In this document: positions 1-5,156 of the stretch, piece by piece
Position numbering within the stretch: the first letter of the stretch is position 1
Layout: each line of letters begins with the position of its first letter
NCBI GenBank assembly: GCA_913009765.1
Contig: CAJVYT010000308.1
Coordinates: forward strand, 1-5,407
Reading direction: 5' to 3'
From: an uncultured candidate division Zixibacteria bacterium
Lineage (GTDB): Bacteria; Zixibacteria; MSB-5A5; GN15; FEB-12
DNA: 5,407 bases
Translations under genes and position numbers: made by a program
The notes under the pieces: generated by a model
Databases searched by the model: none
What the model saw: the letters and a program-made list of their open reading frames with translations, nothing else
Told to the model about the DNA's origin: nothing

Positions 1-475
1 TGTCACACCCATACATTATGGACACCCATGCCTTTACCCGCCCTTCCCTGTTAATTGGCAATGTCTTTAGATGATATTCCGGGTTATCATTTAAAGCTGA
101 GAATTGAGAATCGAGAATCGAGAATTGCAAACCATTATTAAGCCAATCAGAAAGGCTGTCAATATTCCCAGGGCCGAATACAAAGTCCACGATCGGAAAT
201 CTTTTAAACAGGGAACTGCCTATTTGCTGGGCAATACAGCCTGCCACAGCTATCTTCAGATTCGGATTTTTTGCCTTTGCTGTTTTAAGCCGTCCCAGAT
301 CGCTGAAGACCTTGTGTTCTGCCTTTTGCCTGATACTGCAGGTATTTAGAACTATTACGTCGGCGTCAGCAGTCCCATCCGTGCTCTCATAGCCTGATTC
401 CGCAAAAATCCCGGCGATCTTCTCAGAATCGTGGACATTCATTTGACACCCGTAGGTTTTCAAGAAAAACTTCAT
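1..475 (-). CDS. miaB: tRNA-2-methylthio-N6-isopentenyladenosine synthase MiaB, N-terminal part (runs off the window)
   Basis: MiaB is a radical-SAM methylthiotransferase that adds a methylthio group to i6A37 of tRNAs reading UNN codons. The open frame runs 158 codons from ATG at 475 to the window edge with no stop. It starts MKFFLKTYGCQMN, the classic UPF0004 N-terminus. The three auxiliary-cluster cysteines are at C10 (TYGCQMN), C46 (LNTCSIR) and C80 (VAGCIAQ). FGPGNID (100-106) follows, and VSIMYGC places the first radical-SAM cysteine at C157, just before the edge. The spacing is that of MiaB itself rather than RimO or MtaB. The start is fixed by homology and by a GGAG Shine-Dalgarno at 483-486. 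Two oddities stand out. Residues 117-126 are encoded by an in-frame heptamer repeat in the linker before the radical-SAM core. The first eleven codons also form one arm of a 28-bp hairpin with sequence immediately upstream. Confidence 0.96.
   Translation of the reverse strand, partial: MKFFLKTYGCQMNVHDSEKIAGIFAESGYESTDGTADADVIVLNTCSIRQKAEHKVFSDLGRLKTAKAKNPNLKIAVAGCIAQQIGSSLFKRFPIVDFVFGPGNIDSLSDWLNNGLQFSILDSQFSALNDNPEYHLKTLPINREGRVKAWVSIMYGCD
99..126. repeat. Four-unit heptamer tandem repeat inside miaB
   Basis: Four consecutive 7-bp units (GAGAATT, GAGAATC, GAGAATC, GAGAATT) lie inside miaB. They encode roughly residues 117-126 (QFSILDSQFS) in the variable linker between the UPF0004 and radical-SAM domains. 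At 28 bp the array is not a multiple of three overall, yet the frame stays open on both sides. Copy-number change by one unit would shift the frame. Confidence 0.85.
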
Positions 476-522
476 ATTGAGTCTCCAAATAAGTTTTTCT
501 TGAAAACCTGACCACGGGTGTC
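445..522 (-). repeat. Hairpin A: long inverted repeat spanning the miaB start codon
   Basis: Outer arms 445-453 and 514-522 are perfect 9-bp complements (GACACCCGT / ACGGGTGTC). Inner arms 454-472 and 491-509 are perfect 19-bp complements. The only interruption is a one-sided 4-nt bulge at 510-513, GGTC when read on the minus strand. The 18-nt loop (473-490) holds the miaB Shine-Dalgarno and ATG. Arm 445-472 is the coding sequence for miaB residues 2-11 and is constrained by protein function, so arm 491-522 is presumably the copied one. The design (outer stem, 4-nt bulge on the 5' arm, inner stem starting AGGTTT) matches hairpins B-I, but in reverse orientation. Confidence 0.93.
473..486 (-). 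promoter_or_regulatory. miaB translation initiation site exposed in a hairpin loop
   Basis: On the minus strand the loop reads ATTTGGAGACTCAATATG. GGAG lies at 486-483 and the ATG at 475-473, with 7 nt between them. The rest of the initiation region is locked in a 19+9 bp stem. In a transcript that includes the stem, ribosome access would depend on this loop. Whether this regulates miaB is inference. Confidence 0.7.
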
Positions 523-523
523 A

Positions 524-561
524 CCCCCACGTCTAGTTTTACAATCGTGAAACTGTGGGGG
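524..561 (+). repeat. Hairpin B (repeat family), 5 bp beyond the GIY-YIG stop
   Basis: Outer stem CCCCCAC (524-530) pairs with GTGGGGG (555-561). GTCT (531-534) bulges on the 5' side only. Inner stem AGTTTTAC (535-542) pairs with GTGAAACT (547-554) with one G-T wobble, around the loop AATC. It starts 2 nt after hairpin A and ends 4 nt before the stop codon of the nuclease gene. There is no T-run on the minus strand, so it is not a typical intrinsic terminator. Confidence 0.92.
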
Positions 562-565
562 TTTC

Positions 566-856
566 TTATTTTGATTTTTGGAACTGTTCATATCTTTCGA
601 TTAGTTCTTCTTTTTCTTTCCTCGTCAACTTCTTTAAATTTCTTTCAGCATGTAACGCATTTTTATAATATCTATATTCCTTGGCGTAGACCAGTTTTAC
701 CGGTGATTTACCTCTTAGATACTTTGCTCCGTTTCCTTTATTATGCAGTTTGATTCTGCTTTCCAGATTATTTGTGTAACCAGTATAATATGTCCCATTT
801 TTACATTTAACGATATATACATAAAACACGTCTTTTCGCTTGATCTTATCTCTCAT
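566..856 (-). CDS. Single-domain GIY-YIG nuclease (UPF0213/YhbQ-like)
   Basis: This 96-aa protein is almost entirely one GIY-YIG domain. The paired tyrosine motifs are YVYIV (12-16) and YYTGYT (23-28). The catalytic arginine is R34 in LESRIKLHNKG, and H38 is the usual following histidine. GAKYLRGKSPVKLVY (43-57) is the conserved family middle. The metal-binding glutamate is E71 in HAERNLKKL. Length and motifs match stand-alone UPF0213-type proteins, so it appears intact and catalytically competent to cut one DNA strand per metal site. The C-terminus is lysine/glutamate-rich and has no added DNA-binding domain. The start at 856 is preceded by GGGG with a 4-nt gap, and that GGGG belongs to hairpin C. 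The biological role of the family is poorly defined. Its position among nine related hairpins suggests a link to their spread or processing, but this is inference. Confidence 0.93.
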   Translation of the reverse strand: MRDKIKRKDVFYVYIVKCKNGTYYTGYTNNLESRIKLHNKGNGAKYLRGKSPVKLVYAKEYRYYKNALHAERNLKKLTRKEKEELIERYEQFQKSK

Positions 857-859
857 ACA

Positions 860-894
860 TCCCCACGTTCAGGTTTGGGACAAACCTGTGGGGA
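860..894 (+). repeat. Hairpin C (repeat family), directly upstream of the GIY-YIG start
   Basis: Outer stem TCCCCAC (860-866) pairs with GTGGGGA (888-894). GTTC (867-870) bulges on the 5' side only. Inner stem AGGTTTG (871-877) pairs with CAAACCT (881-887) around the loop GGA. Both stems are perfect. It ends 3 nt from the nuclease ATG and is followed in the same orientation by hairpin D. Confidence 0.92.
861..866 (-). promoter_or_regulatory. Ribosome binding site of the GIY-YIG gene supplied by hairpin C
   Basis: On the minus strand the 3' arm of hairpin C reads GTGGGG, ending 4 nt before the ATG at 856. It is the only purine-rich Shine-Dalgarno-like sequence near that start. Folding of hairpin C would hide it, so translation of the nuclease could be restrained by its own flanking repeat. 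Confidence 0.5.
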
Positions 895-898
895 TCAT

Positions 899-931
899 CC
901 CCGTGTCCAGTTTCGGAACTAATCTACGGGG
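899..931 (+). repeat. Hairpin D (degenerate member of the repeat family)
   Basis: Outer stem CCCCGTG (899-905) pairs with TACGGGG (925-931), including one G-T pair. Inner stem AGTT (909-912) pairs with AACT (917-920). The 5' side keeps the GTCCAG signature (905-910), but the 3' side has gained unpaired AATC (921-924), so this copy has drifted. It lies in tandem with hairpin C, 4 nt away. Confidence 0.7.
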
Positions 932-1003: not shown

Positions 1004-1033
1004 GGCACCAGTAGGTTTTGAGAAAAATTTCAT
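1004..1033 (-). other. miaB-start-like fragment 2 (frameshifted copy)
   Basis: On the minus strand from ATG at 1033 the sequence aligns base by base with the first 31 nt of miaB (from 475). It shows four substitutions and one missing base after TTTTTCT. The missing base changes the reading to MKFFSKPTGA. At DNA level it is the closest relative of the miaB start in the window. It suggests duplication of the miaB 5' end together with its hairpin. Confidence 0.6.
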
Positions 1034-1062
1034 ATTTTGCTCAAAACCTGGACACGGGTGTT
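1004..1062 (-). repeat. Hairpin E: long reverse-orientation member resembling hairpin A
   Basis: Inner arms AGGTTTTGAG (1013-1022) and CTCAAAACCT (1040-1049) are perfect 10-bp complements around a 17-nt loop. Outer arms 1006-1012 and 1054-1060 pair with one mismatch, extendable by two G-T pairs. The one-sided bulge at 1050-1053 reads GTCC on the minus strand. Like hairpin A it carries a miaB-like ATG at the loop edge and abuts a forward hairpin (F), whose outer arm it overlaps by 4 nt. Confidence 0.85.
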
Positions 1063-1100
1063 CCCAAGTCTAGTTTTACAAACGTAAAACTGAGGGAACA
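1059..1100 (+). repeat. Hairpin F (repeat family) at the truncation point of the recombinase
   Basis: Outer stem TGTTCCC (1059-1065) pairs with GGGAACA (1094-1100). Inner stem AGTTTTAC (1072-1079) pairs with GTAAAACT (1084-1091) around the loop AAAC. The 5' side carries extra AAGTCT and the 3' side GA. The outer stem sequence differs from the CCCCAC type in both arms, which is compensatory change. The recombinase coding sequence stops exactly at its edge (1101). Confidence 0.9.
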
Positions 1101-1162
1101 GGGCGTTCGGTAGAGTAGCCGCTTATCCCAGCATCTTGATAGATTTTAAATATCTCACATGT

Positions 1163-1198
1163 CCCCATGTCTTGTTTTGCGCCTGTGAAACCATGGGG
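1163..1198 (+). repeat. Hairpin G (repeat family) inside the recombinase
   Basis: Outer stem CCCCATG (1163-1169) pairs with CATGGGG (1192-1198). TCTT (1170-1173) is unpaired on the 5' side only. Inner stem GTTTTGC (1174-1180) pairs with GTGAAAC (1185-1191) using two G-T pairs, around the loop GCCT. It forms a tandem pair with hairpin H, 2 nt away, and together they split recombinase pieces 2 and 3. Confidence 0.9.
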
Positions 1199-1200
1199 GT

Positions 1201-1242
1201 CATCCCCATGTCCAGTTTCATGCCAGTGAAACTATGGGGATG
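1201..1242 (+). repeat. Hairpin H (repeat family) inside the recombinase
   Basis: Outer stem CATCCCCAT (1201-1209) pairs perfectly with ATGGGGATG (1234-1242). GTCC (1210-1213) bulges on the 5' side only. Inner stem AGTTTCA (1214-1220) pairs perfectly with TGAAACT (1227-1233). It is the cleanest member of the family. The recombinase codon GGG (1245-1243) directly abuts its outer edge. Confidence 0.94.
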
Positions 1243-1300
1243 CCCTTCCCTATCAGCAAAGGATTCAAGGTATTCTCTCTGGACCTCAAGAGAATACTCG

Positions 1301-1354
1301 TCCTCACGTTTTAGATTTGCAATTGTTAATCTTAGGATAGCAAATCTGTGAGGA
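1301..1354 (+). repeat. Hairpin I (repeat family) inside the recombinase
   Basis: Outer stem TCCTCAC (1301-1307) pairs with GTGAGGA (1348-1354). GTTTT (1308-1312) is unpaired on the 5' side only. Inner stem AGATTTGC (1313-1320) pairs with GCAAATCT (1340-1347) around a 19-nt loop. Both stems are perfect, yet each differs from hairpin C at paired positions, so pairing is conserved through compensatory change. It splits recombinase pieces 1 and 2 between DQAKEG and YSLEVQ. Confidence 0.92.
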
Positions 1355-1420
1355 GCCTTCTTTTGCTTGGTCTTCGGTGGAGACGCGAATGTAAATGGCA
1401 ACACTCAAACTCATAACTTG

Positions 1421-2116
1421 TTATGCCTCTTTTTTTAAGAATTTCTTCTGGTCTTCCTTCAACACATCCCTATGTGGATTATTCCACTGAAACCGCTCAA
1501 ACAGCCATAAAATATAAGATAAAGACAATTCACTCGATCGTCCAAGCAACCCCTTAGCACTGACTATTTGCTCATAAGGTATCACATCCAGAGAACTTAC
1601 AAGCCCTCCCATCAAGTCACGGTCAAAACTAAAAGAGGTAAGCTTTCTGCCCTTGTTGTTGCACAGCTCAACTTTTATGTAGATCTCACCACCCAAAATA
1701 TTTTTTTCAACGAGACGGGATGCAAACTCAAATATTTCGGTGCCACTGTAAAGGGCATTTATAAAGCCCAAAATGCTGCCGGGCTTCACATCCCTGTATT
1801 TCTCGCCATACCACGGGTCATCCATAATCCAGTCTTCCCTAACAGAGAAAAGGTGTATGAACTGGCCACTTTGAAAAAAGCGAAACATCTCCTTGTGAGC
1901 TCCGGAGTCAGTGAGAGACTCAACCCAGTCAAGGCCGTTGGACCTGCCTTCCCTGTCGTAGTGAGGATAATCCCATCCGCGCAAGGATACCTTTGATTCC
2001 TCAATAATCCTTGTGCACTCGCTAAGCGTTGAAATTCTTTTCTCATCAAACACAGAAGGCCTTATAATCACCTTCCAGTAGCCACGAGACTTTATAACAT
2101 TTAACAGTTCTTCCAT
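1421..2116 (-). CDS. Uncharacterised protein translated together with an AlbA_2-domain protein
   Basis: I do not recognise a named domain in this 231-aa protein. Visible features are WKVIIRP (14-20), LRGWDYPHY (45-53) followed by an acidic/basic stretch, a GLDWVES segment (61-67), LFSVREDW (89-96) and FERFQWNNP near the C-terminus (207-213). The C-terminus is very lysine-rich (KKFLKKEA). It has no signal peptide or clear membrane helix, so it is probably cytoplasmic. The ATG overlaps the stop of the AlbA_2 gene by one base (TAATG), with AAGGA about 9 nt upstream. The two products are therefore probably made in matched amounts and may act as a complex. The aromatic and arginine-rich N-terminal motifs look like a conserved functional surface. 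The next gene downstream is the broken serine recombinase. Function is unknown; a role in defence is inferred only from neighbours. Confidence 0.85.
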   Translation of the reverse strand: MEELLNVIKSRGYWKVIIRPSVFDEKRISTLSECTRIIEESKVSLRGWDYPHYDREGRSNGLDWVESLTDSGAHKEMFRFFQSGQFIHLFSVREDWIMDDPWYGEKYRDVKPGSILGFINALYSGTEIFEFASRLVEKNILGGEIYIKVELCNNKGRKLTSFSFDRDLMGGLVSSLDVIPYEQIVSAKGLLGRSSELSLSYILWLFERFQWNNPHRDVLKEDQKKFLKKEA

Positions 2117-2721
2117 TAACTTAAGTCCTTAATTTGCTCGTCAAACTTATTTTCATTAATACTGTCAGGCGTTTCAACCTCTATGCCTATCCTTGCTGTT
2201 CTGGAAAAAAACTTCCTTATGCCTTTTTCGATGGCAACATCAAGAATTTCCCTCATCTCGGTCTGGCCGGGAACCGCTATGCTTTCCGGTTTTCTTCTCG
2301 AACGGGTGTACATTTTTCCCCTGACAAGGTTTGTTGTTGTGCCGTCTTTTTTGCAAATGACCGGGATTTCATCAAACTCGTTAACCTGAACAATTAAGAA
2401 CTCCTTTCCATCATAAGCCAGAGGCCAGAGATAAAAGTTGACGTAAGGATCAGCGAACTCTGACGTTTTGTCAGCCATGTTGTCCTCGTTAAAAGTTGCC
2501 TTGTCAGTGCTGCTTATTCCGGCAGGCACATATGAGCCGTCGTCCTGCTCTTCCATGCCAATGAGAATAAATCCGCCGTCCCTGATGTTGCTCATAGAAA
2601 GAATCGTACGAATAATTTTCTCGGCAAAACCGGTGTCAGTCCAGGGCATAGAACTCTTATACTCTATGTTTTGCTCCTCTCTTCCCAGCTTTATTATTTC
2701 TACTAATTCCTGCTCGGTCAT
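2116..2721 (-). CDS. Schlafen AlbA_2-domain protein (putative nucleic-acid-binding or RNase-like)
   Basis: This 201-aa protein has the AlbA_2 (divergent AAA_4, PF04326) pattern from residue 1 to about 165. It shows REEQNIEYK (14-22), then SNIRDGGFILIGMEE (44-58) as the glycine-turn strand, then a strand with IPVICKKDGT (119-128), then RGKMYTRSRRKPES (134-147). In Schlafen nucleases two glutamates five residues apart and a lysine two further on line the active centre. E15, E20 and K22 show that spacing, and E57/E58 fall near the third acidic position. An RNase-like centre is therefore plausible but not shown. There is no helicase or winged-helix extension, so it is the short form. A GGGG lies 12 nt before the ATG, a weak site. 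It sits 20 nt after the HTH gene and overlaps the 231-aa gene, in one operon. Such proteins occur in phage-defence and regulatory settings. Confidence 0.88.
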   Translation of the reverse strand: MTEQELVEIIKLGREEQNIEYKSSMPWTDTGFAEKIIRTILSMSNIRDGGFILIGMEEQDDGSYVPAGISSTDKATFNEDNMADKTSEFADPYVNFYLWPLAYDGKEFLIVQVNEFDEIPVICKKDGTTTNLVRGKMYTRSRRKPESIAVPGQTEMREILDVAIEKGIRKFFSRTARIGIEVETPDSINENKFDEQIKDLS

Positions 2722-2741: not shown

Positions 2742-2921
2742 CTACCCTTCATTAAGCTTTTCTTTCCACTCTTTTATCTTTTTAATCTCCTTTTCTGTAA
2801 ATACCGGATAATTGCGATAATCTCGTTTGGGCGTCACCCACCCTTTTTTAATCCAATAATAGAGCCCTTGGCGGGTAAGACCCAGTTCTTTTGCGGCTTG
2901 GCTTACATTATATCGCTTCAT
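2742..2921 (-). CDS. Small MerR/excisionase-type helix-turn-helix DNA-binding protein
   Basis: The 59-aa product starts MKRYNVSQAAKELGLTRQG. The helix-turn-helix is NVSQAAKELGLTRQGLYYWIKKG (residues 4-26), a MerR/HTH_17-type fold. The wing follows with the YPVFTEKEI pattern (38-46), then a lysine/glutamate-rich helix (IKEWKEKL). I chose ATG 2921 because the HTH begins at once and GAGG sits 5 nt upstream. An in-frame extension to 2978 would add 19 residues with no family similarity and would place the promoter inside the gene. It is the first gene of the operon and lies beside the divergent OLD promoter region, so it is a natural candidate for operon autoregulator. An excisionase-like role with the downstream recombinase is an alternative. 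Confidence 0.88.
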   Translation of the reverse strand: MKRYNVSQAAKELGLTRQGLYYWIKKGWVTPKRDYRNYPVFTEKEIKKIKEWKEKLNEG

Positions 2922-2930
2922 GGATTCCTC

Positions 2931-2959
2931 ACTATACATCACTTTACACTCTTTGTCAA
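2931..2959 (-). promoter_or_regulatory. Sigma-70 promoter of the HTH-AlbA_2 operon, nearly leaderless
   Basis: On the minus strand TTGACA (2959-2954) and TATAGT (2936-2931) are separated by exactly 17 nt. Transcription should begin near 2924, only about 2-4 nt before the ATG at 2921. The message would then be essentially leaderless, and the GAGG at 2930-2927 would lie upstream of the transcript. The spacer holds repeated AGTG motifs that could be an operator. Confidence 0.75.
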
Positions 2960-3036
2960 TTGGCCTTAGTCTCGTCACTAAAAGATAGAGTCAGAATAAA
3001 GAATTATTTCTTCCTGTAATCATCAACTTTAAAACC

Positions 3037-3203: not shown

Positions 3204-5156
3204 ATGCATATACGTGAATGTACAATATCTAATATAACCAGCTATCGAAATTCCACCACATTAAAATTCTCACCGAAGTTAAACATTTTCATTGGCCCCA
3301 ATGGCGGGGGTAAAACTAACGCCATACAAGCTCTATGGCTTCCTCTTCAAAGGTTTTTATTTAGTCAATATCAAATTAATATAGACGACCCCAAAGCAAA
3401 AAAAATTGATACGCGTGATCAAATGAAAGGTCGTTACGAACAAGATTTGCAAGCCCACGATATAGATAAAGATACTGAGCTTAATATCGTAATAGCTACC
3501 GATAGTGCTGACGCTAGCAATATTGGTTTAATTAAAAAATACATGGATGAATTGAAATCGGAATTTCTTCCGGACTACTTTTCTGAATTAGAAAAGATAT
3601 CTGATGAACACATAAATGATATACAGGAAGGATGCGACATTTCTTTCTCCGTTGTAAACGGCCGACTCACATTACCACCAGTTGATAGTCTAGAAAGTCG
3701 GTTCTTGTCCTACTGTAGAGTAATTAATATGGTCTCTCGGACTAGAAACAGAGAATTATCTTCCCAAATAAACAACCCGGTCTTTTTTTTGCAGTCCTTA
3801 AGGCAGTCTACTGTTGGGTACTCGATCGGAATTGCTGGAGTTCAGCATCAATCACTTCATGAGAATTTAAACAATATTATTTCTTCCGGCGGCACAGGAA
3901 TATCACAGCTTGCATCGCAACATTTTGGCCTGTTAATGCAGAATGCCGTTGATAAGTCATCAAAAAGCATTGGGGATGTAGCCCAAGCACTGTTCGATGC
4001 TGAACCGGATGTAATGCTTTTTCGCAATTATCTTGGGTTATTGAGTTATGAATGGAATCTGGTGCAGCGAAGCTACCAATTCGGAAACTATGTGTCCGAA
4101 TATAAGAAAGAAGGAGTAATAATTGAACCAAATAAATTCAGTTCCGGTGAAAAAGAAATTATAAGCTTCTTGGATGCAATAATTTCCACAAAAGTTAGTA
4201 ATGGAATCGTGCTCATTGATGAACCGGAATTGCATTTACACCCAAGATGGCAATCTATATTGCTAGATCTGATTCAAGTATTTTCAGATAAACGTAATTT
4301 GCAGTTTATTTTTTGCACCCACTCCCCTGTGTTCGTAACTCATGAAACCATTGACGCAGTAACTCGTATTTATCTTAAAGATGGGTGTAGCAGGCATGCC
4401 TCAATACATGCTGCAGATACCTTGCCCAATAAAGCACATCTTGTACGCATGATTAACAGCCACAACAACGAACGCATATTTTTTGCAGATCATGTTGTCC
4501 TTGTTGAAGGCATAATGGACCGTTTAGTTTTCGACAGTTTAGTGAAATTAATTGGTGATAGGTTTACTAGGCGAAAGTCAACAGAAGTAGTCGAAGTACA
4601 TGGAAAGCATAATTTCGCATCATACAAAAGTGTTTTAGATATAGTGAAAATGCCTAGTTCAATTGTTGCTGATCAGGATTATATTTTGAATATAGGGACC
4701 GAGGAACTAAAGGGCCTTTTTGTAACAAATTGTGATGGTATAGATAGAAAGGTCTTATTAGATAAAAAAAGCAGAGACTCTAATACTCTAATCGAAGCTA
4801 TAGAGAAGGCAGCCGACACCGGAAGCTTTAATCAAGTTTTAGATGTAATTAATTATATAAAAAAAAGAATTACCAAATTAAAAGAAGACATTACCGAAGA
4901 GGAAATACAAAACCTCAATGCTTATATTTCTTCAAAGGTAGCTGAAGAAATATACGTATTAAGATTAGGAGAAATCGAGGATTACTTGCCTCCTGGCATA
5001 AACTCCGTTGGAAGTTTAATTGTCTTTCTTGAAGACCCAGACTGGGTGCGCCACCTACAGCAAGAGGCGCGCAACGAGTTGCTAGATATTGTCACTTCTA
5101 TTCTGCAACTTTCGCAGCCAGATAAAATGGCTATCCAGACTGAGTACATGACCTGA
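3204..5156 (+). CDS. OLD-family nuclease: ABC-type ATPase fused to a Toprim domain
   Basis: This 650-aa protein has an N-terminal SMC/RecF-like ATPase and a C-terminal Toprim nuclease. Walker A is GPNGGGKT (31-38). The signature is FSSGEKEI (312-319). Walker B is VLIDEPELHLHP (336-347), with D339 and E340. The switch histidine is H373 in FCTHSPVF. The Toprim part begins VVLVEGIMDRLVF (431-443), giving E435 and D439, and continues to VADQD (488-492), giving metal ligands D490 and D492. All expected catalytic residues are present. OLD enzymes are ATP-regulated, metal-dependent DNA nucleases known from phage P2 exclusion and from Gabija GajA. No UvrD-like gajB follows within the window, so a stand-alone class 1-like enzyme is favoured. 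The Shine-Dalgarno is weak (AGGA 16 nt upstream), and the start is chosen because the N-terminal beta-strand begins at residue 2. Its codons are more AT-rich than those of the minus-strand genes. Confidence 0.95.
   Translation: MHIRECTISNITSYRNSTTLKFSPKLNIFIGPNGGGKTNAIQALWLPLQRFLFSQYQINIDDPKAKKIDTRDQMKGRYEQDLQAHDIDKDTELNIVIATDSADASNIGLIKKYMDELKSEFLPDYFSELEKISDEHINDIQEGCDISFSVVNGRLTLPPVDSLESRFLSYCRVINMVSRTRNRELSSQINNPVFFLQSLRQSTVGYSIGIAGVQHQSLHENLNNIISSGGTGISQLASQHFGLLMQNAVDKSSKSIGDVAQALFDAEPDVMLFRNYLGLLSYEWNLVQRSYQFGNYVSEYKKEGVIIEPNKFSSGEKEIISFLDAIISTKVSNGIVLIDEPELHLHPRWQSILLDLIQVFSDKRNLQFIFCTHSPVFVTHETIDAVTRIYLKDGCSRHASIHAADTLPNKAHLVRMINSHNNERIFFADHVVLVEGIMDRLVFDSLVKLIGDRFTRRKSTEVVEVHGKHNFASYKSVLDIVKMPSSIVADQDYILNIGTEELKGLFVTNCDGIDRKVLLDKKSRDSNTLIEAIEKAADTGSFNQVLDVINYIKKRITKLKEDITEEEIQNLNAYISSKVAEEIYVLRLGEIEDYLPPGINSVGSLIVFLEDPDWVRHLQQEARNELLDIVTSILQLSQPDKMAIQTEYMT

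Follow-up and report, generated by a model that had tools for sequence, protein, structure and literature searches.

Hairpin insertions in a serine recombinase remnant next to miaB in an uncultured Zixibacteria bacterium

Introduction

Why does a serine recombinase gene lie in three pieces that are separated by hairpins, next to a small nuclease gene and the tRNA-modification gene miaB? The question is raised by a stretch of 5,407 nt (hereafter the window) at the beginning of contig CAJVYT010000308.1 of an uncultured candidate division Zixibacteria bacterium. A sequence-only reading of this DNA had proposed that hairpins entered the recombinase gene repeatedly and that the third junction, at a hairpin designated F, ends the gene. 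Comparison with related loci suggests two things beyond that reading, namely that the hairpins belong to a family linked with the adjacent GIY-YIG gene and that the recombinase would be the integrase of elements sitting in miaB. The window contains the following genes:

Start codon at 475-473, minus strand: 5' part of miaB, which leaves the window (Pfam UPF0004, 1.9e-33 over 127-475)
566-856, minus strand: GIY-YIG nuclease gene, 96 amino acids (PF01541, 5.5e-19)
1414-1099, minus strand: serine recombinase gene in three pieces
1421-2116, minus strand: gene without assigned family
2116-2721, minus strand: AlbA_2 gene
2742-2978, minus strand: MerR-like helix-turn-helix gene
3204-5156, plus strand: OLD/GajA/PtuA-like (Gabija-like) ATPase gene with a TOPRIM domain

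Hairpins at sites 1 and 2 of the recombinase gene

The interrupted part of the recombinase gene is composed as follows; bit scores refer to R1, the model of the palindrome family that is described below, and identities to the recombinase of locus L053 (genome G063):

1356-1414, minus strand: piece 1 of a large serine recombinase, from the start codon to DQAKEG (89.7% DNA identity over 29 BLAST-matched nt)
1297-1355, minus strand: site-1 insert of 59 nt (net 58) with the hairpin 1302-1353 (33.1 bits, not used in building R1)
1244-1296, minus strand: piece 2 of the large serine recombinase, YSLEVQREYLESFADREG (83.0% DNA identity, 53 nt)
1158-1243, minus strand: site-2 insert of 86 nt (net 83) with the tandem hairpins 1204-1239 and 1163-1198
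1099-1157, minus strand: piece 3, EIFKIYQDAGISGYSTERP, the gene being truncated at its end (84.7% DNA identity to the intact gene, 59 nt)

DNA folding gave a z-score of -5.34 for hairpin 1302-1353, -3.40 for hairpin 1204-1239 (45.0 bits, used in building R1) and -1.79 for hairpin 1163-1198 (28.0 bits). The recombinase gene of L053 is uninterrupted, and all three window pieces can be aligned to it in the same order, with 83-90% DNA identity, which bears out the earlier view that they derive from one recombinase and not from several. In L053, a single nucleotide separates the counterparts of pieces 1 and 2, as against 59 nt in the window; for pieces 2 and 3 the spacing is 3 nt in L053 and 86 nt in the window. 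The net insertions therefore amount to 58 and 83 nt, precisely the lengths that had been read from the letters, and the absence of both inserts from L053 likewise confirms the proposed near base-level junctions.

Empty sites, for which the sequence-only reading had suggested a search, were found as well. Site 1 is empty in L001 and L053, and it is uninterrupted in 23 of 30 Omnitrophota recombinase loci (L227-L256), these 23 being the ones that the script could read. Filled sites also occur among the relatives. In L049 (genome G017), both sites are filled and the site-1 hairpin, as judged by eye, carries two further hairpins in its loop, while L189 (G081) has a hairpin at site 1 and L177 (G131) one that lies four bases beyond it. 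Site 2 of L001 is filled by an outer hairpin with a second hairpin in its loop, and L001 has an extra hairpin between QRE and YLE that is absent from the window and L053. L001 and L049 each have a hairpin that corresponds in the alignment to 1163-1198 of the window; the whole site-2 insert is absent from L053. No target duplication, which the sequence-only reading had proposed to look for, was seen at sites 1 and 2 when they were compared by eye in the alignment with relatives.

Hairpins next to genes can be terminators and the window is a single record, which could speak for terminators or unrelated intergenic DNA between pieces of several recombinases, or for a misassembly. However, the match of the three pieces to one gene in order refutes this explanation for sites 1 and 2, filled sites recur in L049, L189 and, at site 2, L001, and the palindrome family is spread over many genomes, so that we regard it as extremely improbable. 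The comparison gives good support to the view that, at sites 1 and 2, hairpins were inserted into what had been a gene. For the filled state of site 1, common descent, transfer of the fragment and repeated insertion after GAAGG would all fit.

The third junction

Beyond the last recombinase codon, the window continues with one further stretch:

1005-1098, minus strand: site-3 stretch of 94 nt, consisting of hairpin F (1062-1097) and a palindrome (1007-1059) that resembles the hairpin H2 described below; absent from L001 at this place

Hairpin F scores 42.9 bits (used in building R1; z -3.63), and the palindrome 1007-1059 scores 21.6 bits (E 0.0033; z -5.86). The latter has the opposite orientation to hairpin F and keeps a legible, decayed miaB start, MKFFSKPTG. 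In both the window and L001, the recombinase is lost after CGCCCTG or CGTCCTG; L001 then goes directly to CTTTTTAATTAAAAC, whereas the window has the 94 nt and then CTTTTTAAATCAAAAC. Since the recombinase of L001 stops at the same base without a hairpin, hairpin F did not end the gene. Thus, of what had been said about the third junction, the additional stretch behind the last codon stands and the role of hairpin F does not. The shared truncation also implies that the gene was cut before, or independently of, hairpin F. Either a gain in the window or a precise loss in L001 could have produced the present difference.

The integrase and the start of miaB

An intact relative at L268:7402-9033, the same gene as in L053, encodes 544 amino acids with the Resolvase, Recombinase and Zn-ribbon domains of a large serine recombinase of about 500 residues or more (PF00239, 5.5e-43; PF07508, 2.9e-21; PF13408, 1.9e-9), of which the window holds the first part only. 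For the analysis of its surroundings, 29 loci with large serine recombinase (LSR) genes were considered, namely L053 and the 28 best Omnitrophota loci (L227-L254); L255 and L256 (37-38% identity) as well as second LSR copies in G125 and G145 were left out. Comparison of these loci revealed that miaB follows the integrase in 27 of the 29 (26 by tblastn, L237 by motif). The stop codon of the integrase lies inside miaB in 24 of them, at ...GGNTGYCARATGA (22 found by script, L235 and L244 by reading). In L228, L231 and L242 the integrase frame ends earlier with miaB still next, and in L229 and L234 it reads into GGTTGGCCGTTGTC instead. By this comparison, the window recombinase is apparently a decayed large serine integrase, the wreck of one associated with miaB.

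Moreover, the relatives contain displaced fragments of the target, a trait of elements that restore their target gene. These left-behind miaB starts, for example ...KKVYLSTYG and ...KKVFLRTFG, break at GGNTG and continue with about RCCGTTGG. Two of them lie upstream of miaB in L003, two in L010 and four in L006, where the contig ends before any miaB. The four tandem fragments of L006 (1587, 2962, 4573 and 5038) fall within 3.5 kb, with a GIY-YIG gene between the last two. Of 48 distinct places with a GGNTGRCC junction, 43 have a miaB-start-like peptide in front of it, 30 of the loci having been fetched by that very pattern. In these 43 places, the left end continues after the pattern-fixed positions 1-3 with G (36), T (27), T (35), G (36) and G (28), which is again partly fixed by the pattern. 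An in-frame start codon lies within 45 codons in 24 of the 30 fetched places. The left end RCCGTTGG was not found in the window itself.

The pattern ACNTWYGGNTGRCCGNTG, whose source loci belong to some of the genomes searched, matches 72 times in 56 of 237 Omnitrophota genomes, compared with 2 matches of the backward pattern, which points to the miaB start as a widespread landing place. Among the first 20 genomes listed, a same-strand miaB lies downstream in 8, and 11 of the other 12 reach the contig end; L320 has no miaB within 19 kb of its left-behind start. Together, these comparisons give good support to the view that a miaB island exists, and catalysis of the insertions in miaB by the LSR would fit them. 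Left-behind starts that are inverted relative to miaB were seen in L257 (3396), L269 (13115), L012 (2447) and L266 (7936), and in L242 the region of the miaB start is present a second time, inverted; inversion between sites may occur.

The GIY-YIG cassette and hairpin H2

Between the recombinase remnant and miaB, further hairpins surround the GIY-YIG gene:

448-519, plus strand: hairpin H2 with a 4-nt bulge and inner arms that are complementary at 19/19 positions (27.9 bits, E 1.1e-4; z -8.89)
525-560, minus strand: hairpin H1, in the opposite orientation to H2 (45.5 bits, E 7.5e-9, used in building R1; z -2.52)
861-893, minus strand: hairpin upstream of the GIY-YIG gene (45.1 bits, used in building R1; z -2.65)
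899-931, minus strand: second hairpin upstream of the GIY-YIG gene, partly decayed (29.4 bits, E 4.7e-5; z -1.65)

One arm of H2 is the miaB start (MKFFLKTYG), and the other is an inverted copy of it. The GIY-YIG protein of the window has the PDB relatives 1zg2 and 1ywl (UPF0213), and the closest relative found is encoded in L001 (Nitrospirae, 83%). The domain has the conserved Tyr, Tyr, Arg and Glu: Tyr14, Tyr24, Gly26, Arg34 and Glu71 of the alignment are identical in all 44 GIY-YIG rows. The 44 GIY-YIG loci considered (the window, L001-L013, L047, L048, L050 and L076-L102) include some from Nitrospirae, Desantisbacteria, Omnitrophota, Elusimicrobia, Phycisphaerae and Scalindua; L013 and L079 share one flank and are counted twice, and ten further Omnitrophota places were left out.

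In 20 of these 44 loci, miaB lies within 1 kb downstream of the GIY-YIG gene (19 by motif and L003, with KNYGCQMN, by hand), and in 24 it does not. Of the 20 GIY-YIG-adjacent miaB genes, 11 have a start that is spanned by a bulged H2 without mismatches, and all 11 have an oppositely oriented hairpin between the GIY-YIG gene and H2. As judged by eye, the palindrome over the miaB start lacks a bulge in some of the others (for instance L088, L099 and L102). Among 28 miaB genes from genomes around G001, the only mismatch-free H2 is that of G001 itself, which is GIY-YIG-adjacent; two matches with one mismatch were taken as chance. The cassette lies between a recombinase remnant and miaB in the window, in L001 (Nitrospirae) and in L177 (G131, Omnitrophota). 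In L011 (5261-6501, Scalindua), about 780 nt with reading frames separate the GIY-YIG gene from the miaB start, and a second miaB start follows about 450 nt further on.

The arms of H2 are mismatch-free across genomes whose miaB start sequences differ, as would be expected if H2 were not carried by an element but created at every insertion, the resident miaB start being copied by fold-back. However, an H2 with a miaB-like start also occurs away from intact miaB, in the site-3 stretch of the window and in L006, where this start runs into a left end, and in L009 the start preserved on the left side of the cassette is a different one. We consider fold-back copying improbable.

The palindrome family

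The model R1 was built from 18 examples, mostly hairpins near GIY-YIG genes, that were picked by a Watson-Crick scan. The seven window hairpins of the same orientation match it with E-values between 7.5e-9 and 1e-4, four of the seven being among the 18 building sequences, and their folding z-scores range from -1.65 to -5.34, with the weakest values at 899-931 and 1163-1198. A scan of the whole window for stem-bulge-stem structures found seven, whereas 100 shuffled versions gave 1.5 on average and 5 at most.

The consensus of the examples is about CCCC-RYAG-nTTT-loop-AAAn-CT-nnAC-RYGGGG. An outer stem is followed by an inner stem that starts with A, nearly always AG, and the bulge lies on the 3' side with C as its last base in 18/18 examples. 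Although the Watson-Crick picking of the examples favours such a result, 97.4% of the cells are paired, 8 of 13 pairs have both-sided changes, no cell has a one-sided change such as G-C to G-T, and the covariation score was reached by 0 of 500 shuffles. For the window, no Rfam family was found at gathering score; MIR7696 and mir-1264 matched the long H2 palindrome below their gathering scores and were taken as chance.

Comparison among genomes further revealed that the relatives of the window carry the short palindrome in many dispersed copies, a REP-like trait. At E ≤ 0.1, R1 has matches in 14 of the 38 genomes chosen, among them G028 (39 places), G017 (34), G216 (23), G217 (43) and G007 (2); at E ≤ 0.001, it finds 26 places in G028, 21 in G017, 5 each in G001 and G216, and 2 in G217. 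Inspection by eye revealed whole units of G028 inside others right after the bulge, which ends with GAC or GAT (L136, L143, L144 and L145), and many units of G017 in the loops of others. The nested units of G028 delimit the mobile unit almost to the base, and many hairpins of its loci L135-L154 share a tail of similar sequence on the 3' side, for example GCTTCGC. In G217, at least 19 matches spread over many contigs have one identical score (26.1 bits, E 0.03) and perhaps represent a recently amplified relative of the palindrome.

Which gene accompanies the hairpins?

The R1 runs on 237 Omnitrophota genomes and on 61 genomes around G001 used stricter filters and scored part of the candidates. 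Among the Omnitrophota, with thresholds of E ≤ 1e-25 for GIY-YIG (40 genomes) and E ≤ 1e-3 for R1 (29 genomes), R1 occurs in 15 of 40 genomes with the GIY-YIG gene and in 14 of 197 without it (Fisher p 3e-6, odds ratio 7.8). Around G001, where GIY-YIG was found at E ≤ 1e-20 in 4 genomes and R1 in 3, the fractions are 2/4 and 1/57 (p 0.01). Most of the hairpins behind R1 lie close to GIY-YIG genes, so that at those loci the link is to some extent a product of the model's construction. It is also a loose one: 14 of the 29 hairpin-bearing Omnitrophota genomes have no GIY-YIG copy at E ≤ 1e-25, G017 combines 34 hairpins (E ≤ 0.1) with only a distant GIY-YIG match (1.6e-19), and G020 and G033 carry the GIY-YIG gene but yielded no R1 hairpins. 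GIY-YIG matches of lower strength are widespread, occurring in 34 of the 38 genomes at E ≤ 1e-5. A pattern search of viral contigs for GIY-YIG relatives gave 29 stretches, of which none was a relative.

By their size, hairpin form, inverted pairs and dispersal, the palindromes resemble REPs and REPINs, and PF01797, the family of the RAYT (Y1/HUH) protein, was found in 11 of 14 hairpin-bearing genomes. They could thus be ordinary REPs spread by a RAYT encoded elsewhere in the genome, with the GIY-YIG gene as a bystander. However, PF01797 is equally common among the other chosen genomes (19 of 24), and in the hairpin-bearing G028, G216 and G007, whose completeness may limit the search, it was not found. 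Moreover, it is the presence of GIY-YIG that goes with the hairpins, and H1 and H2 are located at the GIY-YIG gene. Given this lack of association among the 38 chosen genomes, the RAYT was rejected as the mobiliser, and we think it quite unlikely that it spread the hairpins.

Attachment sites of serine integrases are imperfect palindromes. H2 includes the GGNTG junction, and the window, L001, L177 and L012 each have integrase fragments in the neighbourhood of a GIY-YIG gene. These observations would agree with palindromes that are derivatives of attachment sites moved by the serine integrase, the GIY-YIG protein being cargo. However, a bulged H2 was found at 0 of 26 LSR-adjacent miaB genes (L229, L234 and L237 could not be scored), and R1 is not in excess where a close, intact-type LSR is present: it occurs in 1 of 28 Omnitrophota genomes with such an LSR and in 28 of 209 others (odds ratio 0.24, p 0.22). 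The serine integrase was rejected as the mobiliser on this ground, and an origin of the palindromes from attachment sites appears unlikely to us.

A two-layer explanation

The explanation that we consider probable has two layers. In the first, the recombinase pieces would be the dead LSR of an element that was once integrated in miaB. The proposed junction of such elements with miaB lies at the codons Tyr/Phe-Gly|Cys (GGN TG^Y); a replacement miaB start would come with the right end, and the old start would remain, fused to the left end with about RCCGTTGG. Because a replacement start is supplied and the old one is left at the left end, successive elements could accumulate in tandem ahead of miaB and leave it intact. 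In the second layer, a cassette with the GIY-YIG nuclease gene would take the place next to miaB. At its end would lie H1 and H2, two bulged palindromes in inverted orientation, and the new miaB start would be part of H2. Single palindromes and one H1-H2 pair may then have spread as small mobile units; these would have inserted into, or ended up beside, the integrase remnant, which no longer had a function, and in relatives they became nested in one another. The GIY-YIG protein presumably nicks the bulged palindromes in single-stranded DNA and so spreads them.

A more specific version, which we offer tentatively as a possible one, is a REP-like spread that is independent of RAYT. Here, the GIY-YIG nuclease would recognise bulged hairpins in single-stranded DNA and move single and paired copies into genes and each other, and its cassette would home to the miaB start because it carries a palindrome with one arm that can serve as a functional new start of miaB.

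Relation to known systems

In the open-access literature, no paper was found on elements at the start of miaB or on GIY-YIG proteins with REP-like repeats, and we know of no mobiliser that has been assigned to REP-like repeats without RAYT. The Ssn proteins of Neisseria and other bacteria are site-specific single-strand GIY-YIG nucleases that cut at a dispersed repeat. The present system is similar in combining a small GIY-YIG protein with a dispersed repeat as its presumed target. It differs in that the palindromes are bulged, lie inside genes and each other and are paired at the cassette end by miaB, and in being known from sequence alone. The palindromic elements of Rickettsia also lie within protein-coding sequence, but they keep the reading frame, whereas the gene described here is dead. 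SCCmec combines a large serine recombinase, one conserved target gene and tandem accretion; there the target is rlmH and here it is the start-codon end of miaB.

REPs and REPINs with RAYT are short palindromes, single or in inverted pairs, with many copies per genome and one nuclease gene (PMC8266576, PMC2817692, PMC3116915). The palindromes described here are likewise short, single or in inverted pairs, numerous per genome in relatives of the window and tied to one nuclease gene, but there is no link with PF01797, the partner is a GIY-YIG gene and one unit carries a gene start. The dusA-specific islands are described as integrating at the 5' end of a tRNA-modification gene, which is replaced by island sequence (PMC4482086). 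The miaB elements, too, replace the 5' end of a tRNA-modification gene; there, however, the dusA integrase is compared with IntI, XerDC and IntG, which we read as the tyrosine type, whereas here an LSR, miaB and tandem elements are involved. The ssrA islands of Dehalococcoides share with the present elements a large serine recombinase, one conserved target gene and tandem accretion, but their target is the 3' end of ssrA (PMC3146451) and not the start-codon end of miaB.

Since each element would bring a new start codon, elements could accumulate at miaB without harm to the target gene, and they are a source of new serine integrases whose target, within a conserved gene, is defined. A GIY-YIG partner of REP-like repeats could be examined directly with a single small protein and short oligonucleotides.

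Genes behind the left ends

Ten of the 26 largest frames behind the left end were scanned for protein families. They include Fic, Fur, a nucleotidyltransferase and a DUF6088/AbiEi-like protein, as well as a glycosyltransferase, a chloride channel (a transporter), a sulfatase, a methyltransferase and two proteins without a family. AbiEi/AbiEii lies beside the recombinase remnant in L001. In the window, the genes at 3204-5156 (plus strand), 2116-2721 and 1421-2116 (both minus strand) are possibly defence cargo of the miaB island. As judged by eye, a broken relative of the MerR-like gene directly precedes the recombinase in L049 (from about position 146), an arrangement of MerR-like gene and recombinase that we take to be reminiscent of IS607-like pairs.
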